IMG/VR virus record: IMGVR_UViG_3300035137_000026
Location: 62,001 to 126,000 of that record
Source: a virus
DNA: 64,000 bases
Direction: 5' to 3' (one strand)
Position 1 is the first letter of the stretch. Each line of letters starts with the position of its first letter. The notes under the pieces were generated by a model that made no database searches, was not told where the DNA came from, and saw only the letters and a program-made list of their open reading frames with translations. Both the position numbers and the translations under genes were made by a program. Of the stretch, positions 27,748 to 64,000 are shown one piece after another.

Positions 27748-30700
27748 GTGGTGTCTTTGGCAGGGCCTTACATTACAGCTACCGGACCTCAACCAGAACA
27801 GCCTGGAGAATCCGTATCAGGACTAGCGAAGCTTGGTTTTGCTAGTGCCGCTATTGCTGCCAGTGGCTTTATTTCTACTGGTCAGGGCGGACGTCTGTGG
27901 GATCATTACCTTAGAGGTATCCGCACAGCTGAGACTGCTTTCCCTGCCGCCATTCTGAGAACATTCAGAATCTCAGAGTCTCTATCTCCACTCGAGAGCT
28001 TTAAGCAAGTTGCAGTGCCAGCAGAACAGATGGCTGCTGGTGGTAAGTATGCAGAATTCTTGCGCTCTACCTTTGGTTCGAGTATTGACGAGATCAGTTT
28101 GCTGTCTAAAGGAGCTGTCTTCGGTGAAGTTCGAGCTGGCGGCAAAGCTGTAGGTATTGGTGTCCAGATGAAGGCCGGCACTCAGAAGGGTGCTGCTATT
28201 GCTGACTATTATGCCAGAATTACAGGTACACCACTATCTGCCAGACAGTCTCTCAATGAAGCTTTGCTGAAAGCTGAGTATTTTGCCACATCTCCTGGTG
28301 TCCCATACGGTCAGTGGATCGAGGCTATGGACCCCAGCCAACGAACAAGAAGACTCATCTTGGGGGCTAAGTATAGAGAAAAGCTAAGAATACTTGGCAA
28401 AGACTTTGCTCTTAGCAAGAGTATACAGCAGAAGGTAGCCAAGTTAGAGACTCTGGGTCAGCTAATGAGAGCCAAGGCTGCGTCTACAGTCGGCCGTCTA
28501 AATACCCTACTCTCTAAGCCATTTGAGTTTCTGCCAGAGCGTGTGCAGCAGTGGCCAATCATCAAGACCATGGCTGTTAAGCCTGGGTCAGCTACTCAGA
28601 TGTTTGGTCGCTTCATTAAGAAGGCTGTAATCGCTGGAGCTGCCTATAAGGGCCTAGAGTACTATGACTACCTAAGACATCAAGGAAGCCCTTGGGCGAC
28701 CGCTCTAGGGGTCTCTGGTGGAACTCTGGCCGGTGGTGCGTTGTTTAAGGGCGTAGGACGCCGTTTCTCGCCTCTTGGAATGGCTGTGGGTGCTGGTATA
28801 GGCCTCTATACCTCAATAGCTCCTAGATTCGACGAGGGGCTCTTCTATGGCGTTGCATCTATCTTTACAGATGCAAGCCTGGCTCGAGCTAGAATCTCTA
28901 GGTCAGTAGGCCTCACAGAGTCTCTACAGCGACAGGAAGCTATTACTCCTGGCTTAGTATCCGTCAAGACAGCCTTAGGCTTCACAGGCGTAGGTGCTAT
29001 GGCTGCGGGTCTTTATGGCTATGGTGGATTGATTGGCGCATCTATACGAGAGAAGTTTGGTAAGGGTGGACTAACAGCCGACATTATCGAGAATATGCGA
29101 GAGACTCGAGCCGGCAAGATGGGGAAGAGGCTTTGGGGAACTAAATTTGGTCAGAGAGTGGCTAAGACTCCAATCCTTAAGCATCTAACCAAGATTAAGA
29201 GCCCGATGGCTCTAGGAGCCCTGGGTGGTCTGGCTGCTTACGGAGTCCTGTCTACGGGCCTAAGCTTGCTGTCTGGTAACTTCGGCGCAGCCATGCCATT
29301 TGCTAGCCTTCTTGGCACCACAGAAACACCAGAAGAACTAGAGGCTCTCTACTCAGGTGAACAAGAGGTAGCTATTCGAAAGGGTAGATGGTGGGAGTTT
29401 GGTCGCAGTACGCCTTATGAAGGCGGGCGAATTGAATACTATCGCTCACACATGATACATCGTCTCAGAACCAGAGCCTACCAGAAGGGTATCTATGGCT
29501 CTGAGGAAGAGCGTTGGGAATACGATCCGCTAATGAATCCTCTCAAGGCTCTCTTTGGTTCTGACGAGTGGAAGTACCACTATGAGATGAAGTATCAGTA
29601 TGAGAGACCTGCTCCGTTGACCGGTACTTATTTCGAAGACGTGCCATTCGTAGGGCCTGCGCTAGCAGCTACAGCCGGTAAACTACTTAAGCCTCGCAAG
29701 CTGGTACGTCCAGACGAATGGAAGTATGGGGCGGGAGAATACAGGCATCTTCCAGATGTGCGTGGAGAGACAGAGCCAGCCTATGAACTAGGAGGACTAG
29801 GCCCAGGCAAGCCAGTTGAGCCCGATGAGGGCACACAGCTATTCAATGAGCTGATGTACCGTAGGCGTGAAGCTGTTGGTCTTGTAGGTTTTGCTGAGGG
29901 TGCTATCGAGAAAGCCCTGACTGGCAGAGAAGAAGTCTTCCAGAACCTGCAGATGCTCGGTGTTATGGGTAGAGAGACCGGCTCTGAGTATTGGCTATGG
30001 AGTCACCTGAATGTTGGTGGTGCTCTAGGTACATCTGAGCCTATCAGACGTTTCATCCCACGTACTAGAAGTTACCTTGAGGAATATAACCCTCTTGACA
30101 ATACAATGCCTTCTTGGATACCACAGGACTACTTCCTAGACCTGACACATGGAAATCCATTCAAGAAGATTAAGGAGGCTGAGATTAGACTCCCAGGTCC
30201 AGGATATGCTGCTCGATACCCTGAGGTCGTAGGATTGCAACCAGAAGAGTATCCATTAGTCCACAGACTCAAGATTCTTGGTGATGTGGCTATGTGGAGT
30301 GATGAATACAAGCAGGCTCTGTCTAGGGCTAAAAGAAATATGAACAGACTATCCGACCAGGAGAAACAGATGGTTCGGACAATAGAGGCACAGGTCAAGA
30401 GTAAGAAGACACGTAGAGAAATCACTCCGTATCGTTTCAGACCTGAACTACTTGCAGAAGAAGAAGTTACAGTTACAGACGTACTAGATCCTCGCAGAAT
30501 TAAGACAGTAGAATATGGAGATGCTGTTATTGAGTTACAAGGTGTTGGCGCTGTGACTAATATGGCTGGTGCGTTAGAGTTTGCTCGAGAGAAACTTGTT
30601 GGTAATAAGGTTACCATCAGAACGCCTATTCTAGAATCTAGAAAGTATGATGTTACCAAGCGTGGTAGCAGAGTTAAGGCTGTAGCAATGCTTGGAGATA

Positions 30701-31920
30701 CTGACTACGGTCAGGTATTGGTCGAGAATGAGCTAACAGCATACAAGGATCTGAGAGATGAGTTTGAACAGTTGAGATTCACACAAAGAGAGCAGCTTGC
30801 TGGTAGATTGGGCGAGGCTGCACTACACGGCATTGAAACTCCTCTGGAGATGCTAACACCTATGTCGCCAGCATCTAAACTAATCAGACAACGTTCTCCT
30901 CTTGAGGAGTACATGGCTACAGAGGCTATCGGTACTAGTAACGCTTTCTGGGATAGACCGGTAGAGAACTTCTTGAAGCCGGCAGCTAATATGGCTCTTG
31001 CTGAGATTGGCTTTGATGATATTCCAGAAGATATTCGCCAGCGAAGAGACATCAACGAATACTTTGACATGCTAGCCTGGACTAAGTCTCGCCAAGCTGA
31101 GATGGCAGCTAGACAAATAGATGACTGGAAGGCTGTTAAAGAAGCTCAGGCAGCACAGCACGAGACTCTATTTGGACTGGATGTATTTGGCTCTCCTGTA
31201 GCGGCCATGAAAGCCCTACCACGTAGAGAACGTGATTTTTTTAATGCCTTTGTGAACGCTCATTCTGCAAATGAGAGACAGAGAATCTTAGAACTTATTC
31301 CTGAGAATGAGCAGAGAATCTATATGGCTCAGTGGCTAAGACAGGAAGAAGCTGCTGCTCGAGCTAAGAAGGAAGCAGGGTTGTCCACAAAGTACGATGA
31401 GAATACTTTAGCAGCAGCTATGATGATGAGACGTTCTGAAGGCTTTGGTATTACACCAGAACTGGAAGAACTATGGATGGCTGAGACTGATGGCAAGATT
31501 CCGTTTGATGAGTGGGTTAGAGAGAAGAAGGCTGAAGAGTATTTTGCTACACACTCATTGCCAGGAGCTGACTGGTTGGGCTGGCACCCGTCTGTAGATC
31601 TGGATGATGTCAAACTAAAATACGTTGAGATGGCCGGGCTAGACCATCATGACTTTGATCTTTGGGGCGCACGCCGTAGGTCATTAGCTAGGAAGCCATA
31701 CATTGCCGATGAGCTTATTGCCGATATGTCTGCACAGACAGACTTAGAAAATCTGGCTATCTCAAGAGCAAATGCTAAGGCGATTGCTAAGATGCACGAG
31801 GAGTCAAATGTCTCTTTCTCTAATATTGGAGCAAACTTGCCTCCACGCTATGATATTGAGATAGTAGATAAGAGAGATGGATTAGTACAAGAAGCACATA
31901 AGCGTTTAGGAGCTAGATAA
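27748..31920 (+). CDS. Giant tape-measure-position protein with SNase-like domain
   Basis: 1390 residues. Possible starts are GTG 27748, GTG 27751 and TTG 27757; the TTG has AGGTGG at six bases and may be the real one. Gly/Ala hydrophobic segments lie near 25-43, 290-355, 408-432 and 484-512, as in tape measure and DNA-ejection proteins. At about 905-1005 a domain reads like staphylococcal nuclease: ...GDAVIELQGVG, AGALEFAREKLVGNKVTIRT, then DTDYGQVLVENELTAYKD. The catalytic RLxxxDxPE is missing, so it is probably not an active nuclease. The C-terminal 400 residues are helical and charged, with LPRRERDFFNAF and LIPENEQRIYMAQW. It lies after the tail chaperones, so a tape measure or an ejected virion protein is most likely. 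Confidence 0.7.
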   Translation: MVSLAGPYITATGPQPEQPGESVSGLAKLGFASAAIAASGFISTGQGGRLWDHYLRGIRTAETAFPAAILRTFRISESLSPLESFKQVAVPAEQMAAGGKYAEFLRSTFGSSIDEISLLSKGAVFGEVRAGGKAVGIGVQMKAGTQKGAAIADYYARITGTPLSARQSLNEALLKAEYFATSPGVPYGQWIEAMDPSQRTRRLILGAKYREKLRILGKDFALSKSIQQKVAKLETLGQLMRAKAASTVGRLNTLLSKPFEFLPERVQQWPIIKTMAVKPGSATQMFGRFIKKAVIAGAAYKGLEYYDYLRHQGSPWATALGVSGGTLAGGALFKGVGRRFSPLGMAVGAGIGLYTSIAPRFDEGLFYGVASIFTDASLARARISRSVGLTESLQRQEAITPGLVSVKTALGFTGVGAMAAGLYGYGGLIGASIREKFGKGGLTADIIENMRETRAGKMGKRLWGTKFGQRVAKTPILKHLTKIKSPMALGALGGLAAYGVLSTGLSLLSGNFGAAMPFASLLGTTETPEELEALYSGEQEVAIRKGRWWEFGRSTPYEGGRIEYYRSHMIHRLRTRAYQKGIYGSEEERWEYDPLMNPLKALFGSDEWKYHYEMKYQYERPAPLTGTYFEDVPFVGPALAATAGKLLKPRKLVRPDEWKYGAGEYRHLPDVRGETEPAYELGGLGPGKPVEPDEGTQLFNELMYRRREAVGLVGFAEGAIEKALTGREEVFQNLQMLGVMGRETGSEYWLWSHLNVGGALGTSEPIRRFIPRTRSYLEEYNPLDNTMPSWIPQDYFLDLTHGNPFKKIKEAEIRLPGPGYAARYPEVVGLQPEEYPLVHRLKILGDVAMWSDEYKQALSRAKRNMNRLSDQEKQMVRTIEAQVKSKKTRREITPYRFRPELLAEEEVTVTDVLDPRRIKTVEYGDAVIELQGVGAVTNMAGALEFAREKLVGNKVTIRTPILESRKYDVTKRGSRVKAVAMLGDTDYGQVLVENELTAYKDLRDEFEQLRFTQREQLAGRLGEAALHGIETPLEMLTPMSPASKLIRQRSPLEEYMATEAIGTSNAFWDRPVENFLKPAANMALAEIGFDDIPEDIRQRRDINEYFDMLAWTKSRQAEMAARQIDDWKAVKEAQAAQHETLFGLDVFGSPVAAMKALPRRERDFFNAFVNAHSANERQRILELIPENEQRIYMAQWLRQEEAAARAKKEAGLSTKYDENTLAAAMMMRRSEGFGITPELEELWMAETDGKIPFDEWVREKKAEEYFATHSLPGADWLGWHPSVDLDDVKLKYVEMAGLDHHDFDLWGARRRSLARKPYIADELIADMSAQTDLENLAISRANAKAIAKMHEESNVSFSNIGANLPPRYDIEIVDKRDGLVQEAHKRLGAR

Positions 31921-34900
31921 TGGCTAAAAACTTTCCATGGAACGTAGAGGAGCGTTCAGACTTTTGGGGATATGGTGCCACAGCAGCTGTTGCTGGTGGC
32001 GTTGGCTATGGTCTGTATCGTGCTAATCCTGCAGTTAGAGCAGCAATGTCAGTAGGCACCAGAGATGTAGCTCATGATGTGGCTGCTGAGCTTAGAACTA
32101 TGGGTAGATTTAATGTCGCTCGAAGAGGCGCTAGATCTGCTATTGACGATATTGGAGAGAATATCCTAACTAACCTTGCTGCATCCAGTAGCCCAGGCAC
32201 AGTTAAAGCAGACATTGCCCAGGCCACATATGAAGCAGCTCTCAGAGGCGGAAGAAGCACACATACAGAAGCTTATAGTGTCTATCAGAAAATCATGCAC
32301 CAAACTACTGTGAGGAATGCCTATGAGCAGGCTAAGGCTGCTATCGGTGAGCTTCAGGGTGATGTGAGCTTGTTGACCAGCCGTATAAGCGATCTGGGAG
32401 AAGGTGGTTTTTATGGTCGATTCATGGGGCAAGAGGGTGGCCGTCTTACCGAGATAGCTAAGGCTGCTACTGCCACAGGAGAATTTGTTGGTAGCAGGGT
32501 AGCTCGTGAAGAGGCTGCATGGATGTCTGGTGCTGTTGCTGATAGAGCAAAGGCAATTCAGGCACGCTTAGACGCTGCTGCTTCTCAAGCCGGCGGTAAA
32601 ATTCAATGGACCGGCATCCAAGACGTTGAAGATATTCTTGAAGGACAGAGAGTTACTACTCCTATGCTGCGTGGTCGTGTCGGTGGTGAGGCTATTAATA
32701 TTCCTCTCAAGGCTACTGGCATGACATATGGTGGCGACCAGCTAACCGCAAGGTATGTTACACGTGGAGCTTTCGGCACAACAGGCGATATTAGAGATTA
32801 CACTACTGAGTACGTTAGTAGATTAGAAGAGATGATGGGTGCTCAGAAGACTAAGACTAGTCTGAAGAATGCTGTTATTGATGCCAACCACGAGATTGTT
32901 AATGCTATGAGGAATAGAGATGCTGCTCATAGATCAATGGCTATCTGGAAAATGCCTGAAGCTATGCTACCTGCGGGTGGTAGAGTAAAGTCTAGAATGA
33001 ATCAGATGGAAGCCGTGTTTGTAGGTCAGATGACAGAAGGCTATCGCAGCAAGGTGATTGCAGAATCTCTGGCTGGCGGGCGTCAACTCTATCCAATCGG
33101 TAGCCCAGAGACGGTAGCTAAAGGAACATTCGTTCGAGGTGACATAGCAGAGCAGCTGTTTGGTCCTATGGGCAGGCTAATGGGTGTGGAGCAGAGACCT
33201 ACTCAGTTCATTCGTGAGAAGTTTGGCGTTACCGCAGAAGCCAAGGCTGCTGCTAGAGGATTCCGTGGTGAGTTTGGTAGACACTTTAGTAGGCTGGAGC
33301 GGAAGATTCAAGGTACTGAATACCAGGGTCTTCTCTATGGCGGCTATGCACCAACCGCAGCACAAGCATATACTGCACCACAGCTAACCGCATTCTATGC
33401 TAAACCTTCTCGTCTAGAAACTGGGCCACTAGCACAACAGATGTTCGCAGAAGAAGCTATCATTTCACGTAGGGTAGCTCCTATGATGGAGTATGAGCGT
33501 ACAGTACAGAAGAAGATTGCTCTTAATGAAGGCTTTAGAGTCAACAAGCAGGTGCTAGATGCTCTAAAGGCTAGAAAGGTTGGAGAGCTTGCAGAGCTTG
33601 GCGAAGTTGGCAGAGGAGGTTTCTTGGGTGTCGAGTTTGGTACGGGTAAAGAACTATGGGTAGAAGGCGCTGGTGGTGCTCGAGCAGATATTATTGGAGC
33701 ACAGCTTACAGGAGAGAACCAAGCTACCGTATTCCTTAAAGAGAGACATCGTTTGTCAGATGAGAAGTGGTGGAAGTTCTTCAGTGAGGATGTAAAGTTC
33801 CTAGGCAAGCAGGCTGATGATGTCCGCATGAGACGTCTAGCTGAGGCTGCTGGTATTGGTACTCAGGTTGCCGGTCAAGACCTTGAGGCTATTGTTAGTG
33901 GTAAGCTTGTTGGCCGTAATCGCATGGCTCTCATGACGCAGCAGATCGAAGCTTTGTCAATGATTACCGCTGGTAAGATGGAAGATAGAGCACTATCGCT
34001 TCGTAGACAGGTGCTGGCCAAAGAGTTCATGACAGACCCAGCTCACTATCTGAAGATTGATAGACTGATGGGCGATCATATGGCAGATGCAGAATACCGA
34101 ATTCAGAAGAACATGGTAGCCTTGGCTAAGAAGTTCAAGTTCTCACCAGAAGAGATGGGACTTACCTTTGGCCTTATGGATGCTAAGAGAGCTGCTGAGC
34201 TGGGTATTGCTGCAGAAGTAGAAGCAGCACCTGGTGTCGTCGGTCTATTCAAGGGACGTCTGGGAGATCTGGCATTTGAAGGCGGAGCTGGCGGACTGGG
34301 TAAGTTTGAGCAGACAGGCTTCCGTCTCTTGGCTATGAAGGGTGAGGAGGGACAGAGGTTCGCTGCTGAGCTGGCTACTAGAATCCGTGGCAAAGATGAA
34401 TTGATTCCTGCTAATCGGATGATGGCTAGTGTGCTCAATGAGATGGAGCTTACAGAACGACTATCTAAGATAGCAGGCAAGGCTCCTATTGACGAGCGTA
34501 CTCTAGCTCAGATGACAGCTGGCGACTTACTCAGAGAAGAGGGTCGGTATGTCACTATCGGTCGGAAGATTCAAGCTTTCGGCGGGGCCAAACAAATCTA
34601 TATTCCTGGCATTAAGGAAGCTCAGGGAATGATGCTCCCTACTATTACAGACAAGGGACAGAGAATCCCATCTGATATTAGTAGAGGACTAGAGGATTTA
34701 CGTGGCTTGGTAGCCAAGGGCGCAGCCCAAGAAGAGATTGAAGATGTAGCTGCTAGACTCAGAACATCTATCGTCCAGCAAACAGAACTACAAGCCTCGG
34801 CTACAGGGAAAATCCTTGGAACTCGGTATCTTACAGGTATTCGACAAACTGCTGCTCAGACAGCACAATCTAATGCTGCATTCAGAATCTCTCCTCGCAC

Positions 34901-36389
34901 AGCCAACAGAATGTTTGAGGACTTGATTGACCGTGCACAAGGCACAGAGCAGAAAGCCTTCCTCAATATGCAGAAACGTAAGCTTCTGGATGAGGGAGAG
35001 CAACTTATAGGTGGTGTGTGGCGTCATCCAACCACAGGACCAGAAAGCTTCCAGTTTGTTCGCTATCAGGTAGACAGAAATCTAGCCGATGAGCTTATTG
35101 CCGCTCCCTACCAAATGGGAGAGATTGTTCTGGGTGGCAAGCGTCATAAGGTAGATGTTTCGGCAATGGTTGGTATGAAGGGCGACTTTGACAAAGATAT
35201 GTTCAATATCGCTGCTATTTCCGACAGAGATACGGTTAAGCGTCTAACAGCCAAGATGAAGAATGAGGTCGCTGAAGGTTATACAGGCTACTTGTTTAAC
35301 CATTACGCTATGAAGGATCTGATTGATCAACGTAAGGGACCGATCAGTGATCTTGTTAACCTAACTAGACAGGAAGCTCTTGAGCAGGGTGCACGCAATC
35401 TGACGACAGCCAAAGTTGCTACTCCACAAGTTAACCTAGCTCTGCAGAAACTCAAGCTTGGCCTGCAATATGCAGCTCCGAAAGAGTATCGTCCTATGGC
35501 TGAGCTGTTCTGGCATCTTGAGGAGGTTGCTATTGGTGGTAAACACGGTGCTCAACAGAGTAGAATGTATCAGGATATTGCTCATGCCGTAAGACAGAGA
35601 GATGCTTCAACCCTCGAAAGTGTTATCAAGACATTAATGGGCGAGAAAGACAAAGTCATCTCGGGTCAGATAACAGGTCCTACAGGAGACCTTGTGCCTC
35701 AGACCATGAAGTATAGCCCAAAGCGGTGGGCTGATCAGGCTATGCAGGCGGCAGTATCTGCTAGTGAGGATGTAGAGATTGCATACAAGTCTGCTCGGGC
35801 AGCTAAGGGTATAGTGCCACAGGATATGTCCACATTGGTTGAGATGTATTATAAGCGTAGAACAGGCTCGTTAGATGTGGCTCAATCTGTAATGCATTCC
35901 AAGTCTTATGGTATGCCAGGATTTACAGAGAGAGCTAATAGAGTATTGCGTCAGGCCGGCACAAAGACTCGAGCTATTCTTGGTGCTCTAAGTAAAGCTA
36001 AGGCTCCAGCTCTTGTTGGAGCAGCAATTGGAGCCGGCATGATGCTGTCTGCTCCTTCTGTGTCGGGCGCACTACAAGCACCCAGAGAAGGCCCTGCTGG
36101 TGGAAGAAATATAAATAACATAGATCTAGGTCCTCCGGCTGGTGTTGGAGTCAATCCTCCACCTCCAAGGATTATGGTATCGCCCAAGGCTTATGATATG
36201 GGTGGAATTAAGATGTCATCTCGTGCTAATATTAGAATGTCTATGCCGGATGCACAGCAGTCTGGTGGAGACTTCATGCGAAACGCTAGAACTTTAGCTA
36301 GTGGCGGAAATGTCAGAGTCCGGACAACAGATGATCGAGAGGCTCTTAGTCCCCACCGATTGGCGAATAAGATACATGAGAGACTGTAA
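31920..36389 (+). CDS. Giant virion protein with RNA-polymerase beta-prime-like motifs
   Basis: 1489 residues, TAATG-coupled to the previous giant. The N-terminus has a Gly/Ala hydrophobic segment (GYGATAAVAGGVGYGLY). Three motifs appear in the order found in RNA polymerase beta-prime: GKILGTRYLTGIR (963-975; compare GKRVDYSGR), R-H-P-T (1035-1038; compare R-A-P-T) and GDFDKDMFN (1088-1096; compare ADFDGDQM). All three metal-binding Asp positions (1089, 1091, 1093) are kept, but the usual Gly is Lys. Near 1170-1215 come KVATPQVNLALQKL and HLEEVAIGGKHG. The C-terminus has a hydrophobic segment (ALVGAAIGAGMMLSAPSV) and a Pro-rich tail. I infer a diverged two-barrel RNA polymerase carried in the virion; the beta-like barrel and its lysines were not found. 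Otherwise it is a tape measure or ejection protein. Confidence 0.55.
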   Translation: MAKNFPWNVEERSDFWGYGATAAVAGGVGYGLYRANPAVRAAMSVGTRDVAHDVAAELRTMGRFNVARRGARSAIDDIGENILTNLAASSSPGTVKADIAQATYEAALRGGRSTHTEAYSVYQKIMHQTTVRNAYEQAKAAIGELQGDVSLLTSRISDLGEGGFYGRFMGQEGGRLTEIAKAATATGEFVGSRVAREEAAWMSGAVADRAKAIQARLDAAASQAGGKIQWTGIQDVEDILEGQRVTTPMLRGRVGGEAINIPLKATGMTYGGDQLTARYVTRGAFGTTGDIRDYTTEYVSRLEEMMGAQKTKTSLKNAVIDANHEIVNAMRNRDAAHRSMAIWKMPEAMLPAGGRVKSRMNQMEAVFVGQMTEGYRSKVIAESLAGGRQLYPIGSPETVAKGTFVRGDIAEQLFGPMGRLMGVEQRPTQFIREKFGVTAEAKAAARGFRGEFGRHFSRLERKIQGTEYQGLLYGGYAPTAAQAYTAPQLTAFYAKPSRLETGPLAQQMFAEEAIISRRVAPMMEYERTVQKKIALNEGFRVNKQVLDALKARKVGELAELGEVGRGGFLGVEFGTGKELWVEGAGGARADIIGAQLTGENQATVFLKERHRLSDEKWWKFFSEDVKFLGKQADDVRMRRLAEAAGIGTQVAGQDLEAIVSGKLVGRNRMALMTQQIEALSMITAGKMEDRALSLRRQVLAKEFMTDPAHYLKIDRLMGDHMADAEYRIQKNMVALAKKFKFSPEEMGLTFGLMDAKRAAELGIAAEVEAAPGVVGLFKGRLGDLAFEGGAGGLGKFEQTGFRLLAMKGEEGQRFAAELATRIRGKDELIPANRMMASVLNEMELTERLSKIAGKAPIDERTLAQMTAGDLLREEGRYVTIGRKIQAFGGAKQIYIPGIKEAQGMMLPTITDKGQRIPSDISRGLEDLRGLVAKGAAQEEIEDVAARLRTSIVQQTELQASATGKILGTRYLTGIRQTAAQTAQSNAAFRISPRTANRMFEDLIDRAQGTEQKAFLNMQKRKLLDEGEQLIGGVWRHPTTGPESFQFVRYQVDRNLADELIAAPYQMGEIVLGGKRHKVDVSAMVGMKGDFDKDMFNIAAISDRDTVKRLTAKMKNEVAEGYTGYLFNHYAMKDLIDQRKGPISDLVNLTRQEALEQGARNLTTAKVATPQVNLALQKLKLGLQYAAPKEYRPMAELFWHLEEVAIGGKHGAQQSRMYQDIAHAVRQRDASTLESVIKTLMGEKDKVISGQITGPTGDLVPQTMKYSPKRWADQAMQAAVSASEDVEIAYKSARAAKGIVPQDMSTLVEMYYKRRTGSLDVAQSVMHSKSYGMPGFTERANRVLRQAGTKTRAILGALSKAKAPALVGAAIGAGMMLSAPSVSGALQAPREGPAGGRNINNIDLGPPAGVGVNPPPPRIMVSPKAYDMGGIKMSSRANIRMSMPDAQQSGGDFMRNARTLASGGNVRVRTTDDREALSPHRLANKIHERL

Positions 36390-36394
36390 AAACT

Positions 36395-39300
36395 ATGCCT
36401 AAAACTATATACGATCAGCTCCCCGAGTACCAAGATCAGACAACAGAGGCTACTCTCCCAGGAGAGAATGGTCAGGATGTGCCCGCAGGTTCAATCTATG
36501 ACCAGCTACCCAATGGTTTTGGAGAGGGGCCTATTCCTGATGAATGGGTTCCAGGAGCAAAACAAGATCGCCAGAAAGCAGCGGATTTCTTCCGTCAGGA
36601 AGTAGATTTCCGTGGCTTTCCAGATGACTTCTTGATCATCAACGATGTTGTTATCTCTGGAATTCCCACCACAGCTGTATCGATTGAATCTAGTAATGAT
36701 GTTGTTGTAGCAGAGACTCTTAGATCTCGCTCGCCAGTGGTGTCTACTAAGGGTACTCAGAGTATCATGGTAAACATCTCTTTGGTGTTTCCTCCAGGAC
36801 AAGAGCAGTCATATAAACTTCGCCGGTTGATTTCAGAGCTACAGCATCATCCGTTACTTTATGTATACAATGGTAAGATTCGCAAGTCCTTAAATATAGT
36901 CGACCCATCTGAGAATACAATCTTTGTTCTCGAGACGGCTACAATGCGTAGTGACTCCGAGCATACTGGTTCAATTATACTAGATATGACTCTACACTAT
37001 TTCAACTATAAGCCATTCTCACACCACTTCTGGTACAACACAGAATTGCCGTGGACTAAGCCAACGAAAGAACAGGCTGGTGATGATACAGAGCCTAATG
37101 AGCTATATCTAGGTGATCTCATAGGATATGAGGCATCATCTCATTCTATGGATAGAGAGTCTGAGAAGATGGCACGTGATTTGTACAATGGCACAATTGC
37201 TTTGTTTGGCGAAAAGCCAAATGCACCAGTCAATATGCCAATGGCTTCTAAGTCCTGGATGTACTATGCCTCGCATATGTATATGAAAACATGGGCTGTC
37301 AAGGAGACTACCAGTGACTACGTAGGTATCCATCTAAGACAGTATGAGTATAGAACACCAGATAGTGATGAGGCTCGGGCGGGTCGTGGTGCTATTAAGG
37401 ATATATTTAGAGAAGTGACCGAGGATGATCTGCCAAAATTCAACTACCATTATAAATCTCAAGTAGATATACCAAAGGAACAGTATGCAGACCTGACTGC
37501 CACTGAGCGACAGGCACATCATGCGATTGACAAAGAACATGCTCCGCCACCCAAACCAACTGGAATAGATTGGCTAGATACCCGCAATGAACTTGTTTCT
37601 ACATATGGTATTTCAGTATTCGCCGTAAAGAATGGTTTAACACCTGGTGTCTTGAGTCCAGTATTAGCTAATGCTGATGGGTCATATCGAAGCTTCCAGA
37701 ATGCCAGCAAGTGTAACATTCACTTTTTTGAAGTTCTGTATCGCAGCGGTTACGAAGTCTCAGTGGTGAAGACTAAATATGGAAAAGGCTATCCACAGAT
37801 TGGTGGTATGCTTCGTCAGATCCGGAGTCCTAGACTTAAGTGGGGTATTCGTATTTCTACTAAGACAAAGTCTCAGATTAATAAGATCATCCAGACTGGT
37901 GTGCCATGTGGTTTGTTAAACAACTTTCACGTTGTTATTCTGACCAAGGTACACGAGGTAGAGCATGCATCAGATGGAAGAATTACTCGTATCAGATTTG
38001 CTGGCTATGATCAAAAGAAGCTTGGCGAATATAAATCTTGGACATGGACAGACAAAAAGACTCCTGGGGGCCTAGAGATTGTACAAGCTATTCCATCTGG
38101 TACGAGACCGCCATATCGTAATCCTCTTGGCCCGATCAAGAAGAAAGATGCGGTTGTTGAATTTGTTAACAAGGTTAATAAGGCCGAGACCAAACAGACT
38201 GGCGGTAAGCAGGACGGCAAGATACTTAAGGACAATAGAAGCGCAACCAAGCGAATGAACTGGATCAAGAAGATATACTTCAACGAAGGCCTTGAATATT
38301 ATACTGATGATCAGAAAGTACGAAACGTATTCTTTAGAGATATTAGCTGTCATGTTTCTAGCGATCCGATTAATGTTGAACTGATTAACAGACAGAATAT
38401 TGTGATTGCAGAAGACATGGTAACATCTGCTGTGTCGGTAACATTCGGCAATCGCCTTGCTAAGCAAAAATTGCTAAGTCAGGATACTCATACATGGCAG
38501 TTCTTGGGTGCCGGCAATAAAACTGGCACCCTAGTCTTCACATTTGCTGGCGATACAGGCCGTAGGTCAGCTGATAATATCAAGAAGATAATCTATGAGT
38601 CTCGTCGCAATGCTAGGAAGTTTGGTTCTGTTATTCCTGATGCTGGCACAATCAAACTATCATGGGAGGCTCCAGATGGTCGGCAATCTCCAAATACAAT
38701 TTTAGCTTTGTTTGCTGGCAGAACAGGTGAGCATCCACAGAAGGATATGAGTGTAATCGTCACTGATTTCTCAGAGCAGAGCGATCCAAATAACTCAGAC
38801 CTGCACCAGCTAGTAGTCAACTTTATTGTTCAGGACTTTGCAGAAGAGAAGCTAGACAGAAATGTCTTTACTTCTCTGGATCAGAAGAAGCGTGTTCTTA
38901 GTGTTATCATGGATAAGTTTGTCTCTTCTGGTTGGGTTACACCCCAAGAAGATTATGAAGATAAAGACAAGCTTGAGGAAGATGGTAGACTTTGGTTTGT
39001 TGCTGCCAATCCAGAATATATTCTTTATCGAGATACCAAGACAGTTCGTGAGGAGTATCTTATACAGAAACACGTAGAGGGTACAGGTGTTGTCGGTGGT
39101 GGTGCTCGCCCATTTAAGATTGTTGGTAATAAAATCCCAGCATGGCTTGCACCTATTATCATTGAAGCTGTGGCTTATACAGTTAGAGCAAACGATAAGC
39201 TTCCGAGATGGGATACTACTATTTTTGATACTTTTGCCGCTGAACGTCACATGAAAGGTTATAGAGACAATAACGAAACCAAGCGATTGCCAGGCCGTTC

Positions 39301-42300
39301 TTCTTCTGGGCCTGCTGGTAATGTGACACATCCTGGTGAAGAGGTTAATGATCGTGAAGCAAACAACAGGCTGGTGGATCAGATCTTTAATGAGTGGAGT
39401 ACTAATATGGATATTGTATTCCAGAAGATCATGCAACATGCTACTGCTTCTGACTTCAAAAATCACTTTGGTGAGATCGGAGACGAACTTGTAGATGCAT
39501 TAGTGTCTCAGATGGGCGAATGCTACGATGATTTGATGCTACCGCCTACACCTGAGTATAACGTACCTCTACCACCAGACTTCTATGTGTATGATGACTC
39601 GCATGAAGATCCGGCGCTATCCACACTGACAGATGATGGCAATATCGAATTGCTTCTGCGACAGCATTTGCGTAACGAGCGCAAGTCTGTAGCTCGCTAT
39701 CTAGAGGACTATACACTCGGTGGCTCTTATATGTCTAGAAACGTAGAGTTCATCAAGTCTACTCGAGATCATTATGTTTCTCAGATGGACAACGAGATAA
39801 AGTTCATTAACTTTAGTCAAATGTTGGCTGAGGGTTGCTCTACTTGGGAGCCAGTATTTTATAGAAATACAGACCCTGTCTACAATGAAGCTACGGTGAA
39901 GAAGTGGACAGATCACGTTCTTAGTAAGGGTGGCGGCTCAGAAGATGAGAGCCGTCAGACCTTTATGGAGAATCTTGTCAAGCTCAGTCCTTATCTAGGT
40001 GGAGAAGCACGACATTGGATGGCAGACAAGGATCAGCCATATAGTGAAGTTGTAAATCAGATCTATGAAGAGAACTGGAAGCGTCTTGCCTTTGGTCCTA
40101 ATCCTGACTATCAGGCTGCTGATACTGTCATGAATGGTAATCCAATTGATCCTCAAGCTGAGGCTTCACGTCAGGCTATTAAGAAGACAGAATCGGAAGA
40201 GCAGGCCGAAGCGCAACAGAATGCTGAGACATATGGGCCGCATCAAACTAAGATGGAAGATGGTTCCATTACATTCGGCCAGAGCCAGAATGAACGAGAC
40301 GCAGCAGGTTCTGGTATCGGCGGAGCCATTATGGAAGCCTTAGGCACGGTTGGATCATTCTTCTTGGCCACAGCAGAGGCCACAAACCCTGTGATTAGTT
40401 TAGCTAGCAAGGGTATCTCGGCTCTCGTGCAGACAATGAATCACGAAGATGTCAAGAATGTATTCAAGGAAGAGAATGAAGACAACGTCCGTTCTAAGAC
40501 TGCAGCATCTACAGCACTTGGTACAAAGTGGAAAGATCTAAGTATTAGACGTGTGTTCCCTACATTTAAGATATACTTCATTGAAGACGACGAATCAGGA
40601 ACAGAGATCTTACAAGGGCGTACAATCAGAGCATTCGATGACTTTTATTCCTACTCGGCTGTACAAGAGATTAGGGTAATTCGCTCTCGCAAGGTAGCTG
40701 CAGACTTGGCTATTATTCGAATTACCAATGTCGGTGGCAAGTTGCTGCGTAGGCGCTTTGGTGAAGAATCGCAGTATGAGAAAGACCAGAAAGCAAAGTT
40801 TGGTATTGAAGCTGAATATGAAACAGGTATTTTTGCTGATACCGAGAAGGAGAACCCATTTGAGAGAATGGTTCTTCAAGATGGTGTGAAAGTTCAGATT
40901 CGTTTGGGATATGCTAGCAATCCGGACCATTTGGAAACCGTATTCCTAGGTAGCATTGTGGAAATGTCACCTCGGGAAGATGGAAAGATCATAGAGCTGG
41001 TGTGTCAAGGATTCGGAGCTGAGCTAGAAGGTGTAGAGTTGGGGCCTCTGGAGGATGGCCCAATCTTCTATTCCTCACAGCAGGTTCTGTCTGGAGCTAT
41101 TATCCAAGATAGTATTGTTAACTTTGGTCGCCGCTCTAGATGGAATAGAACTCCATCGGCTGAGCAGAGACATCAGTTCACCGGTGGTGAAGGAACTGGC
41201 ACTCTTGGGCAGGTAGGGCCAAGTTCAGTACTAAGAGCTTGGGCTGAAGCACGACAAGGTCGCATGAGCTTCAAGTACCCCTTTAGGAACTACCCACAGG
41301 ACGACAACATTTTTGCGCCTCCTCCAGCTCAGTATGCTACTAAGTGGATGAGGTTCTGGAATAATGCTTGTACCTACCGGCCGCTCAAACAGACACCGTG
41401 GCAGGTATTCAAAGAGCACGAGCTTAGACATCCAGGATATATCTCTCTAGCGGTACCATATGGTCACTCGCCTCGTATGACTATGTTCTTCGGAGCTAAG
41501 GGTCAGCACTATTGGAAGGAACCACCTACAGGACTAGAAATGTTCTTAGCTGAGAGTGCAGAGGAAGAGATCATCAGACTGCGTGGACTGAACAAGGCTC
41601 AGCGTAACCAGGCTCAGTTTAGACAGAACCTGGAGAAGATCGCTAAAGAGAATACGGCTTTGGCAAATGCTATTCTGAAGGGTGTCTCTTCATTCTCTCA
41701 TCCACTTGATGTAGGCACGAAGCTTGGTGAGATTTTTGGTCGCTACAGACCATTCAGAAACTATCATTACTTCGATTCTTCGCACCATATCCTTAAGAAC
41801 TCCATCAGCACAAACCGTGATGGTACATTCAATGAGGTTGAAGTTCTATACTTCTCAGATGAGAATGACATTGAAGAAGACGATATTGATGAACTCGTCA
41901 CCAACCTTGAGCAGCTATCTCGAGGCGAAGCTGGCCTGATGGCTTGTCAGCTGGACGAGAATATGCCTGAAGAGTATATCCGCTCTTACAGAGAAGAGTT
42001 CCCCTCTTGTGTGACGGATGACATGGCTAGACGATACGTCCAGGGTCTGTTTGCACGGCTGCTTAGAGACAGCTACAAGGGTGAGCTTATTGTTCTAGGT
42101 GAGCCGACACTCAAGCCATACGATGTATGCTATCTCAATGACTCGAGTATCAACATGACTGGGCCTATTGAAGTAGAGCAGGTAGAACAGATTTTCAATA
42201 GAGATTTCGGGTACATATCAATCATTACACCTGACATGTGTCTTGATATCAATGACTACTACAGCGCAACGACATTTGACCTAACAGCTGCTAGTATGGC

Positions 42301-42673
42301 TTATACATTTGGTCTGGACAACCCCGACACAGCATTATCTTTGGGTATGTTGGCTTCGCCTCTTGGAACCTTAGCTTGGGCTGGTGGCGTAAAGCTGATA
42401 AAACATACACAGGATGGTGTTCCTGTAATAGCTACGCCATTAGTGCTAAATGGCAAGCCTATGATGAGTGTAGCTATGGGACAGAAGAGGGGCTCACTAT
42501 TGCTTAAGTGGCATGGCCAATGGAAGCAGTATAGAGATGATCTGGCAACTGCTTGGAGTAAGTTTGATATTGCTGAGTCGATGTTCCAGGATGGTCTTGA
42601 TCGACAAGAAAGTCTATTTGGCTTCTTTGGAGCTGAGATAGGCGAATCTATACCAACCGCCGAACCTGACTAG
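36395..42673 (+). CDS. Giant baseplate hub protein (gp27-like, possible Cys amidase)
   Basis: 2092 residues with no clear ribosome site, six bases after the previous stop, so probably coupled. The N-terminal 240 residues form beta domains (INDVVISGIPTTAVSIESS...). At about 425-545 a segment looks like a papain-type amidase: KCNIHFFEVLYRSGY with Cys440, then FHVVILTKV with His512 and a following GYDQ. A second beta domain resembling the first lies near 640-830. A helical Glu-rich linker spans about 1010-1370. At about 1386-1555 a gp27/gpD-type hub domain is recognisable (KVQIRLGYASNPDHLETVFLG...IIELVCQGFG). The final part includes PFRNYHYFDSSHHILKN and LGEPTLKPYDVCYL. It would form the central hub around the tube tip and may carry its own peptidoglycan-cutting domain. 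Most of it remains unassigned. Confidence 0.8.
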   Translation: MPKTIYDQLPEYQDQTTEATLPGENGQDVPAGSIYDQLPNGFGEGPIPDEWVPGAKQDRQKAADFFRQEVDFRGFPDDFLIINDVVISGIPTTAVSIESSNDVVVAETLRSRSPVVSTKGTQSIMVNISLVFPPGQEQSYKLRRLISELQHHPLLYVYNGKIRKSLNIVDPSENTIFVLETATMRSDSEHTGSIILDMTLHYFNYKPFSHHFWYNTELPWTKPTKEQAGDDTEPNELYLGDLIGYEASSHSMDRESEKMARDLYNGTIALFGEKPNAPVNMPMASKSWMYYASHMYMKTWAVKETTSDYVGIHLRQYEYRTPDSDEARAGRGAIKDIFREVTEDDLPKFNYHYKSQVDIPKEQYADLTATERQAHHAIDKEHAPPPKPTGIDWLDTRNELVSTYGISVFAVKNGLTPGVLSPVLANADGSYRSFQNASKCNIHFFEVLYRSGYEVSVVKTKYGKGYPQIGGMLRQIRSPRLKWGIRISTKTKSQINKIIQTGVPCGLLNNFHVVILTKVHEVEHASDGRITRIRFAGYDQKKLGEYKSWTWTDKKTPGGLEIVQAIPSGTRPPYRNPLGPIKKKDAVVEFVNKVNKAETKQTGGKQDGKILKDNRSATKRMNWIKKIYFNEGLEYYTDDQKVRNVFFRDISCHVSSDPINVELINRQNIVIAEDMVTSAVSVTFGNRLAKQKLLSQDTHTWQFLGAGNKTGTLVFTFAGDTGRRSADNIKKIIYESRRNARKFGSVIPDAGTIKLSWEAPDGRQSPNTILALFAGRTGEHPQKDMSVIVTDFSEQSDPNNSDLHQLVVNFIVQDFAEEKLDRNVFTSLDQKKRVLSVIMDKFVSSGWVTPQEDYEDKDKLEEDGRLWFVAANPEYILYRDTKTVREEYLIQKHVEGTGVVGGGARPFKIVGNKIPAWLAPIIIEAVAYTVRANDKLPRWDTTIFDTFAAERHMKGYRDNNETKRLPGRSSSGPAGNVTHPGEEVNDREANNRLVDQIFNEWSTNMDIVFQKIMQHATASDFKNHFGEIGDELVDALVSQMGECYDDLMLPPTPEYNVPLPPDFYVYDDSHEDPALSTLTDDGNIELLLRQHLRNERKSVARYLEDYTLGGSYMSRNVEFIKSTRDHYVSQMDNEIKFINFSQMLAEGCSTWEPVFYRNTDPVYNEATVKKWTDHVLSKGGGSEDESRQTFMENLVKLSPYLGGEARHWMADKDQPYSEVVNQIYEENWKRLAFGPNPDYQAADTVMNGNPIDPQAEASRQAIKKTESEEQAEAQQNAETYGPHQTKMEDGSITFGQSQNERDAAGSGIGGAIMEALGTVGSFFLATAEATNPVISLASKGISALVQTMNHEDVKNVFKEENEDNVRSKTAASTALGTKWKDLSIRRVFPTFKIYFIEDDESGTEILQGRTIRAFDDFYSYSAVQEIRVIRSRKVAADLAIIRITNVGGKLLRRRFGEESQYEKDQKAKFGIEAEYETGIFADTEKENPFERMVLQDGVKVQIRLGYASNPDHLETVFLGSIVEMSPREDGKIIELVCQGFGAELEGVELGPLEDGPIFYSSQQVLSGAIIQDSIVNFGRRSRWNRTPSAEQRHQFTGGEGTGTLGQVGPSSVLRAWAEARQGRMSFKYPFRNYPQDDNIFAPPPAQYATKWMRFWNNACTYRPLKQTPWQVFKEHELRHPGYISLAVPYGHSPRMTMFFGAKGQHYWKEPPTGLEMFLAESAEEEIIRLRGLNKAQRNQAQFRQNLEKIAKENTALANAILKGVSSFSHPLDVGTKLGEIFGRYRPFRNYHYFDSSHHILKNSISTNRDGTFNEVEVLYFSDENDIEEDDIDELVTNLEQLSRGEAGLMACQLDENMPEEYIRSYREEFPSCVTDDMARRYVQGLFARLLRDSYKGELIVLGEPTLKPYDVCYLNDSSINMTGPIEVEQVEQIFNRDFGYISIITPDMCLDINDYYSATTFDLTAASMAYTFGLDNPDTALSLGMLASPLGTLAWAGGVKLIKHTQDGVPVIATPLVLNGKPMMSVAMGQKRGSLLLKWHGQWKQYRDDLATAWSKFDIAESMFQDGLDRQESLFGFFGAEIGESIPTAEPD

Positions 42674-61612: not shown

Positions 61613-64000
61613 ATGCCAAACAAACACTTATCTAGGCCGCCAACAGAAGTCATGAGAGCCAGACTGAAGGTTCTCTTAGAGAATGTTAACTATCTGTATA
61701 CAGCCAAAGAGACGGTTCTCGAGGAAGACCTGGTAAATGCTTACCACACAGCCATGAAGTTGTTCCTAACGTCATTAGACGGTTCTATCTGTGGCGCAGT
61801 GGCCAAGATTCTCAAAGGTTCTCCGGCCGATCCTTTCCACTACAATGTATTTACTAGTTCCATCAACAAGGACCTTGAGGCTCTCTACTCAGAAGCGGGC
61901 GCTCTTGATAAGCTGATTGTCTCAAACTTCAACTCTGTTATTGCCGAAAGGGAACAGGTACTCCAAGTATCCAGACGAGTAAGTGATAAGCTGGGAACCT
62001 ATTTGCTATATGCTGATCCTACTCTGGGTGGCGGGTACTTCTTTGGAGACTCCTTCAATAGTGCCGAGAAAATTGAGGTGGGTTCTGATCTACTAGACAC
62101 AGACGAGTGCTTTATCGGACAGAATGAGGGAGTTATTCTTCTTCCACTAGATGGAGATCCGGACGCACCGAGAATCAAATCCTATACAATAAACAAGCCT
62201 AGCAATGGAAGTGCTGGAAATAATTACGAAACTGATGTTTTGGGCAAAGATGAGATTGAGGCTATCGGAGATAGTGAGCCCAATACTTGGTATGAGTATG
62301 AGCGGGTGACAGCCTACGAGTCCGATACACCGCTTGTCTTTGACCTAACCATTACCCTCGACAAGATCTCAGTTATTAATCATATACATATTAACCCTAT
62401 TAACTTCGGAACGCCATCGCCGGTGTCCATCGTGACGCTCGAGACCTCTAAAGATGGCCTTGAGTATGTGTCGGTTAAGGACGAGGTGCCAATCAAAGAC
62501 TTCGTTTCAGAAGAGGAAGACAATGTATTTGATCTGTCGCCAGCTACCGCAAAGTATGCTGGTCAAGGGTTCTACTCCTTCCTGCCTCGGAAGGCTCAGT
62601 TTGTGCATGTCGTTCTGGAACAATACACACCTTATGCTATTAATACGATAGACGGTTCGCTTCTCCGCTATGCTATTGGCATCAGAGATATCAATATTCT
62701 GGGTCGCAGGTTCAAGACAGAAGGCTCTCTGATCTCTGTGCCAGTGAATATTGGCGAGGAAGCTCGTAAGATCGCCCTGTGGGCCTCTGAGAACCCCGTA
62801 GAGGTTAGCATGCTGTCTGATATCACTCATGCTATTTCAGAGAATGACGGAGCTACCTGGAGGCCCATACAGCCCCAGAGACGCTCTGGGTTCGATGTAC
62901 CTGAGGTGATTGACTATAACACCATTGCAAAAGGTGCCATTGAGACAGATATTGCAGTTAAAACTCTTCGTCATAAAATAAGCATGACTAGAAACACCGA
63001 TGCGTTCTCGGGTAACGTGACTCTCAAAGAAGAGAAAGAAACCAACATTGATGTGCTGAACGTACCTACAGGCGGAGACTTCTCCTTCACAACTACTCAG
63101 CCTCCTATCAGGGAAACTGTTAGGGTGATACTCCCGTTCTACGGAAGCTTCTCCTGTCCCACTGCAGCATATGGTCCTTCCATAGTTGGCCAATCACAGC
63201 CAATGGATCTAGACTTCCTCGAGTTCAATGTGGATGTACCGGCTATCGGCACTCTAAGATATAAGCTACCGTTTAAGAACATTCCTAATCTGCCTGAGCA
63301 TATTCGGGTATTTGTGAATGGCGAACAAATAGAATACTGCTCTAAGAGCGATGAAGGTATCGGCAGCGTGTCTGGCACACAGTCTTTTACCAGCTATGAT
63401 GTGGTGGATGAGAATAGCAAAGTCTATTTCCTGAATAAGGGTGGTGCAGAAATACAATTTGGCTGGACAGATGCGGCTGGTATTCTTAGAGGGTTTCTTC
63501 CTCCTACAGGTGCCAAGATTGAGGTATGTCTGGATGGAGACAACCCTCGTCTCGAGCTAACAGATGCAGGCTATGTTCTATTGCTCGCTGGAAGTAGCGA
63601 TGGCTTTAAGGAGAACGTCAGCTTAATATCTATGAACAATCTGTCAGACGAAGAAGCAGTTGATGTGGCTATTGAGATTCCAGCTGGGCGGGACAAGGTG
63701 GAAATCTCTAGTTCACAGCCGGTAAACACGAGTGCTTTGTCGTCCAAGAAGAGGCTAAAGTTTCCTGCCAAGGCAGGCTATAAAACCATGTATGATTCCA
63801 CCCAGGTAACCAGAACACTATCTCCAATTAATATTCCACAATCCCGTCTACTGGTTGATAGTTCTTCTGATCCTGTAGAGGAAGAACTAGATCAGGGCAT
63901 GCAGACTATCGTTCTAGAAGCTGAAGATGGCATGCTGCCTCCAGTCTTCCTTGAGGATATGGACACATGGCAGATTGTAGAATACGATATTGATACTGGA
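61613..64000 (+). CDS. Large adhesin-like virion protein, 3' end outside window
   Basis: The frame is open from ATG 61613 (AGGTGG upstream) to the window edge: at least 796 residues, incomplete at the C-terminus. The N-terminal 130 residues are helical (RARLKVLLENVNYLYTAKETV; REQVLQVSRRVSDKLGTYLLY). Then come beta domains including LTITLDKISVINHIHINPI, VTLETSKDGLEYVSVKDEV and FVHVVLEQYTPY, the same helical-then-discoidin-like pattern as the upstream gene. Later, FLNKGGAEIQFGWTDAAG suggests another sandwich domain. Probably a peripheral fibre or collar protein. Assignment to adhesion is inference. Confidence 0.65.
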   Translation, partial: MPNKHLSRPPTEVMRARLKVLLENVNYLYTAKETVLEEDLVNAYHTAMKLFLTSLDGSICGAVAKILKGSPADPFHYNVFTSSINKDLEALYSEAGALDKLIVSNFNSVIAEREQVLQVSRRVSDKLGTYLLYADPTLGGGYFFGDSFNSAEKIEVGSDLLDTDECFIGQNEGVILLPLDGDPDAPRIKSYTINKPSNGSAGNNYETDVLGKDEIEAIGDSEPNTWYEYERVTAYESDTPLVFDLTITLDKISVINHIHINPINFGTPSPVSIVTLETSKDGLEYVSVKDEVPIKDFVSEEEDNVFDLSPATAKYAGQGFYSFLPRKAQFVHVVLEQYTPYAINTIDGSLLRYAIGIRDINILGRRFKTEGSLISVPVNIGEEARKIALWASENPVEVSMLSDITHAISENDGATWRPIQPQRRSGFDVPEVIDYNTIAKGAIETDIAVKTLRHKISMTRNTDAFSGNVTLKEEKETNIDVLNVPTGGDFSFTTTQPPIRETVRVILPFYGSFSCPTAAYGPSIVGQSQPMDLDFLEFNVDVPAIGTLRYKLPFKNIPNLPEHIRVFVNGEQIEYCSKSDEGIGSVSGTQSFTSYDVVDENSKVYFLNKGGAEIQFGWTDAAGILRGFLPPTGAKIEVCLDGDNPRLELTDAGYVLLLAGSSDGFKENVSLISMNNLSDEEAVDVAIEIPAGRDKVEISSSQPVNTSALSSKKRLKFPAKAGYKTMYDSTQVTRTLSPINIPQSRLLVDSSSDPVEEELDQGMQTIVLEAEDGMLPPVFLEDMDTWQIVEYDIDTG

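Follow-up and report, generated by a model that had tools for sequence, protein, structure and literature searches.

The stretch of DNA analysed here (the window; 64,000 nucleotides) spans positions 62,001 to 126,000 of IMG/VR virus record IMGVR_UViG_3300035137_000026, which totals 197,730 bp. The source is a 0305phi8-36-like giant myophage. We focused on one gene, encoding 1489 residues, that adjoins the baseplate hub gene on its upstream side. This position is the tape-measure slot and its products are called slot proteins below. Homology and the selective conservation of active-site residues give good support to a two-barrel RNA polymerase core in the slot protein. The slot protein is probably an RNA polymerase with both barrels in one chain, which would be ejected through the tail and transcribe the first genes. 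An earlier note on this DNA had proposed a very diverged beta-prime-type polymerase barrel in a gene lying where a tape measure would. The barrel is supported by conservation, synteny, structure matches and a significant profile link to a family with RNA polymerase matches of its own. The position agrees with that of 0305phi8-36 orf146, which occupies the same slot and was called a tape measure chiefly on the basis of tail length (PMC2147016). Feature coordinates are collected in Table 1.

The beta-prime-type barrel carries three motifs. Their order and positions, as given in the earlier note, were confirmed on the translation of the open reading frame (ORF). R1035 and D1089 are 54 residues apart. 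Window ORFs of at least 60 residues contain a single instance of RxP(x7)Q with DxDxD after it, compared with 0.0125 per shuffled window. The order of all three motifs arose in 0 of 400 shuffles. Hence, a chance origin was ruled out by the shuffles together with conservation. Scans of genome contigs found no relatives of the window protein. Nine IMG/VR homologues, with 40-68% identity, retain WRHPxxGPESFQF and GDFD[KRN]D, including R1035, P1037, D1089, D1091 and D1093. The earlier note had named poor conservation of the three Asp residues as evidence that would count against a polymerase; all three are conserved. Of its R-x-P-T motif, R and P stand in all nine homologues but T1038 varies, one homologue having RHPL. 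The fourth position of the triad loop in these close homologues is K, R or N, never Gly.

More distant relatives were located by one scan with the hub gene, which yielded 45 loci (L numbers below). Among 40 slot-protein clusters (80% identity), DxDxD is present in 36, and 35 of these have RxP upstream when loose spacing is allowed. Under tight spacing, RxP..DxDxD occurs in 35/47 slot proteins versus 3/322 other ORFs, one of which may be the L062 slot protein, misassigned. The active site comes as NRYPTI..ADYDGD, IRYPSIDVGTTQ..GDFDGD, RYPAVGPYSVQ..DYDLD, RHPFTAAGSIQ..ADFDAD, ..ADFDDD and others. Iterative hidden Markov model searches, with E ≤1e-8 at every step, join the window family to the slot proteins of L055, L056, L061, L062, L058, L069, L063-L067 and L059. 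In a 22-row MAFFT alignment, K619, D1089 and D1093 are the sole invariant columns; D1091 and R1035 are kept in 21 rows and P1037 in 20. The L071 row has no polymerase core and matched at its C-terminus only, so its agreement elsewhere is meaningless. A second MAFFT alignment comprised 27 slot proteins (10-47% identity to the first) and left out the motif-less slot proteins L068 and L071, both short, and CDS0027 of Moorella phage MTATph1. Here, the only invariant columns are the three Asp, and the R and P of RxP are among five nearly invariant columns. Conversely, the fourth triad position can be G, K, R, N, L, A, D, S, V or Q. Since many residues occur here across the lineage and the three Asp never vary, the change from Gly to Lys is no sign of decay in itself. 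The earlier note read this change as either a new subtype or a fossil fold. The polymerase site is found in most of the distant relatives at the same genome place. This suggests that the lineage injects its own transcription enzyme with its DNA through the tail.

The link to RNA polymerase runs through Bacillus phage KLEB27-3 (vB_BauM_KLEB27-3). An hhalign comparison with few sequences placed the motifs in register but was non-significant. The extended window family (21 rows) aligned to the KLEB27-3 type with a probability of 97.4 (E 1.1e-11), keeping RxP and DxDxD in register. Masking the triad left E 1.9e-9. Controls gave E 0.66 (column-shuffled, best of 20), 0.16 (reversed) and 0.83 (hub). 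The KLEB27-3 type in turn has PHROG 2987, 'RNA polymerase beta subunit', as its top PHROGs match (E 5.5e-4). Its top Pfam match is PF00623, RNA_pol_Rpb1_2 (E 0.004-0.015, below the curated cut-off). Among PDB sequences, the top match is phage AR9 beta-prime (E 0.18), and largest subunits of RNA polymerase account for 6/7 matches up to E 1. Taken library by library the link is suggestive, and it is consistent across the three.

Foldseek matches of low-confidence structure models point the same way. Searching with an AlphaFold2 (AF2) model of residues 455-1400, all 50 Foldseek matches listed were largest subunits of RNA polymerase (best E 6.6e-3, probability at most 0.96); owing to redundancy in the PDB, these 50 rows count as one observation. 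Matches to a model of residues 945-1150 were mostly double-psi barrel proteins, among them formate dehydrogenase, FwdD, p97/Cdc48, NSF and Pex6 (E 0.2-2). In BFVD, the longer model had a single match below 1e-3, an unnamed protein.

A candidate for the second, beta-type barrel lies in the same chain. K619 and K626 follow a strand-rich region and are N-terminal to the beta-prime-type barrel. K619 is present in all 22 alignment rows and K626 in most. At the aligned site, L064 has GDKVFGTKG and L069 has GDKVFHGAK. Both resemble the beta motif, GDKxxGRHGNKG. In the KLEB27-3 type, K1362 is invariant and is followed by GxR or GxK. The lysine pair is thus consistent with a beta-type barrel. K662 (SGKLVGRN) was also considered as a catalytic lysine and rejected, being unconserved in L055, L056 and L061.

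Several results weigh against this interpretation. On its own, the window family has no RNA polymerase match in Pfam, PHROGs or PDB sequences; judged by these searches, it has drifted beyond sequence detection. Both AF2 models are of low confidence, with a predicted local distance difference test score of 55 and a predicted template modelling score of 0.29 for residues 455-1400, and 56 and 0.58 for residues 945-1150. Neither has a PDB Foldseek match with E <1e-3. The beta-type barrel is proposed from the lysine pair and the order of helices and strands alone, and K626 is absent from some relatives. No excess over shuffles was found for a shared early promoter motif in phage intergenic regions (18-mers, up to 4 mismatches). 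The polymerase core is absent from 4/40 slot clusters. Finally, the fourth triad position in the window family is K, R or N instead of Gly. The last two points, and the drift past detection, also favour a fossil fold. This would be a polymerase descendant in which the barrel of the window subfamily is merely structural, or part of a tape measure, and no RNA is made. We consider it unlikely. Most of the chain has changed, yet conservation is highest at the three Asp, R1035 and K619. This argues for selection for catalysis, and the fourth triad position is widely variable across the lineage.

Slot position, a near absence of cysteine and the C-terminal module are consistent with presence in the virion and ejection. 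We counted 4 Cys in approximately 43,600 residues of 27 slot proteins (0.09 per 1000), compared with 5.25 per 1000 for the remaining ORFs. The window slot protein, gp96 of Thermus phage P23-45 (5002 residues) and lambda gpH (853 residues) each have none. Since gp96 and gpH share this property, low Cys marks proteins of the tail lumen or ejected proteins, rather than polymerases. For N4-like virion polymerases, the absence of Cys has been connected with entry into the cell (PMC5795418). The C-terminal module is probably a virion anchor. Two further slot proteins, of 749 (L068:4674-6920) and 822 residues (L071:4325-6790), have 0 Cys and the C-terminal module and no polymerase core. They resemble the relatives of P23-45 without a fused polymerase. 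Given slot proteins this short, a tape-measure function in setting length is uncertain.

Packaging is inferred from position. Hence, the core could belong to a non-virion or late-expressed two-barrel RNA polymerase that is merely located among tail genes. This is very unlikely because the slot lies between virion genes throughout the lineage, the C-terminal module outlasts loss of the polymerase and slot proteins have almost no Cys. Moreover, KLEB27-3 gp034, from the same slot, is annotated 'structural protein' in the database, and orf146 has been treated as a tape measure.

A tail-delivered polymerase might act as follows. The beta-type barrel, with its lysine pair at approximately 619-626, and the beta-prime-type barrel, with R1035-x-P and D1089-x-D-x-D holding two Mg2+, would form one active site. 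The motif order, conservation and homology described above cover the beta-prime part; the geometry and catalysis are inferred. Anchored by its C-terminal module, the chain would lie inside the tail lumen. It would be ejected before the DNA or together with it, and a Cys-free chain should unfold easily. Once in the cell, by the precedent of P23-45 gp96, it would transcribe the first genes before the host polymerase takes over. We lean towards a tail-delivered two-barrel polymerase being an ancestral trait found throughout 0305phi8-36-like giant myophages and long catalogued as tape measure or 'structural protein', with the DFD[K/R/N]D branch of the window still active and the loop Gly nonessential for two-barrel catalysis.

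Other double-barrel enzymes could act on incoming DNA, for instance a PolD-like DNA polymerase or a primase. The two-barrel core is common to PolD (PMC10770324) and some relatives have an exonuclease-like N-terminal region (KLEB27-3 gp034, by a weak match to MTATph1). Even so, such an enzyme is highly improbable. RNA polymerase models and AR9 beta-prime are the best matches of the KLEB27-3 type, RxP(T)x6Q is spaced as in beta-prime, and the phage has, by motif, a DnaE-type polymerase.

The MTATph1 slot protein, CDS0027 (L008:12513-16439), contains an exonuclease domain (PF00929, E 5.4e-5; PHROG 192, E 5.3e-11). A transposase gene lies between CDS0027 and the hub. The N-terminus of KLEB27-3 gp034 (L009:13004-14003) resembles the MTATph1 exonuclease region (tblastn E 2e-3) and precedes the polymerase core.

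The window also encodes a large terminase, portal, major head protein, tail sheath, and baseplate and hub proteins. Three of these, the portal, sheath and hub, have matches in Bacillus phage KLEB27-3, Moorella phage MTATph1 and Acinetobacter phage ME3, and the database record of ME3 refers to 0305phi8-36. The Cys-free 1390-residue neighbour of the slot protein could be another tail-lumen or ejected protein, or could itself be the tape measure. One of its homologues (L001:1348-2481) contains an intein of approximately 378 residues with a LAGLIDADG-like domain (PF14890, E 4.2e-8; PF14528, E 3.7e-5). Outside the window, positions 158418-163207, 146935-149484 and 166804-167871 of the record encode, by motif, a DnaE-type polymerase with a PHP domain, a DnaG-like primase and RecA, respectively. 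A second two-barrel polymerase was sought in the record, which is possibly incomplete, and rejected; neither PF05183 nor PF00623 matched, and no further ORF had a convincing RxP-DxDxD. Beyond phage records, plasmid pN497-ZHONG of Cytobacillus oceanisediminis (240 kb) encodes a full-length relative of the L080-type slot protein (L098:5607-12857; 63.6% identity), annotated hypothetical. This plasmid is probably a phage-plasmid of the same lineage.

Table 1. Features of the slot-protein gene and its neighbours (window coordinates)
Feature	Position	Strand	Basis and remarks
Upstream virion protein, 1390 residues, 0 Cys	27748..31920	+	Position kept in homologues; conserved block in KLEB27-3 gp033
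Tail-slot protein gene	31920..36389	+	ORF, 1489 residues, two-barrel RNA polymerase core (well supported), 0 Cys; full-length homologues
Beta-type barrel region (DPBB-B), probable	33597..33959	+	Residues ~560-680; strand-rich in low-confidence AF2 model; contains K619 and K626; motif order
K619 and K626 of WKFFSEDVK, a lysine pair, candidate catalytic residues of beta type	33774..33797	+	Conservation in 22-row MAFFT alignment
Beta-prime-type catalytic barrel (DPBB-A)	34752..35249	+	Residues 945-1110; hhalign to KLEB27-3 type; double-psi Foldseek matches of weak E
GKILGTR	34806..34826	+	Residues 963-969; aligned by hhalign near SGRFRIQ of KLEB27-3 type (compare beta-prime SGRSVI)
R-H-P-T-x6-Q (cellular RAPTLHRLGIQ)	35022..35054	+	Residues 1035-1045, RHPT being 1035-1038; R1035 21/22, P1037 20/22
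DFDKD metal-binding triad	35184..35198	+	Residues 1089-1093; D1089, D1091 and D1093 invariant in 27 slot proteins
Post-triad conserved helical segments (FNHYAMKD ... TAKxATPxVN ... ELFWHLEE ... GGKHG)	35295..35549	+	Conservation only; possible equivalents of bridge helix and trigger loop
C-terminal module: hydrophobic helix, Pro-rich linker, conserved terminus	35997..36386	+	hhalign to KLEB27-3 type, E 0.0025; kept in short slot proteins without polymerase
Baseplate hub with peptidoglycan-hydrolase region	36395..42673	+	PHROG 20474, E 2.5e-40; matches to ME3, KLEB27-3 and MTATph1 hubs

If our interpretation is correct, the fusion of polymerase to tape measure extends to a large, old lineage of giant phages with contractile tails, relatives of which infect Bacillus and Acinetobacter. 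It would also account for the start of transcription in 0305phi8-36-like giant phages. The slot family offers a wide natural set of two-barrel active-site variants, and the isolates KLEB27-3 and ME3 exist.

Within the lineage, a close comparison is KLEB27-3 gp034. It occupies the same slot, with a homologous catalytic barrel and a C-terminal module. It differs in its canonical NRYPTI...ADYDGD, its length of 2434 residues and its exonuclease-like N-terminal region, and its record names no polymerase. The corresponding protein of 0305phi8-36, gp146, lies at the same position upstream of hub gp147 and is conserved at its C-terminus only, as in the window lineage. Between orf146 and its BtI1/BwK1 counterpart, only the last 60 residues align (PMC2147016). 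Similarly, our first full-length comparison of window and KLEB27-3 types found only C-termini. Unlike the window record, 0305phi8-36 has a YonO-like gp99 as a separate gene (PMC2147016, PMC7824862).

Other two-barrel enzymes share parts of this design. The crAss-like phage phi14:2 gp66, YonO and QDE-1 have both barrels in one chain, with the metal site in the second, but are found outside any tail-slot protein. Multisubunit polymerases of the phiKZ/AR9 type share virion delivery but consist of several subunits encoded outside any tail-slot gene. AR9 beta-prime, the top PDB sequence match above, belongs to the non-virion polymerase. An hhalign comparison of ME3 gp36 with the slot family was non-significant. 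A precedent is P23-45 gp96, described in 2024 as a virion RNA polymerase fused to the tape measure in one group of Thermus siphophages, an association previously unsuspected (PMC10770324). As proposed for the window protein, it has a single-chain two-barrel core in the tape-measure position; both also have DxDxD, 0 Cys and relatives without the polymerase. However, gp96 has its polymerase N-terminal in 5002 residues and serves a siphovirus, whereas the window core is in the C-terminal half of 1489 residues and the tail is contractile. Aligned to the slot family, gp96 gave E 0.26 over 14 columns at the triad only, which is not significant. Hence, a virion two-barrel polymerase in the tape-measure position is already known from P23-45. 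The new element is a distinct family that spans a lineage of giant myophages and varies in its triad loop; the records and literature searched do not recognise it.

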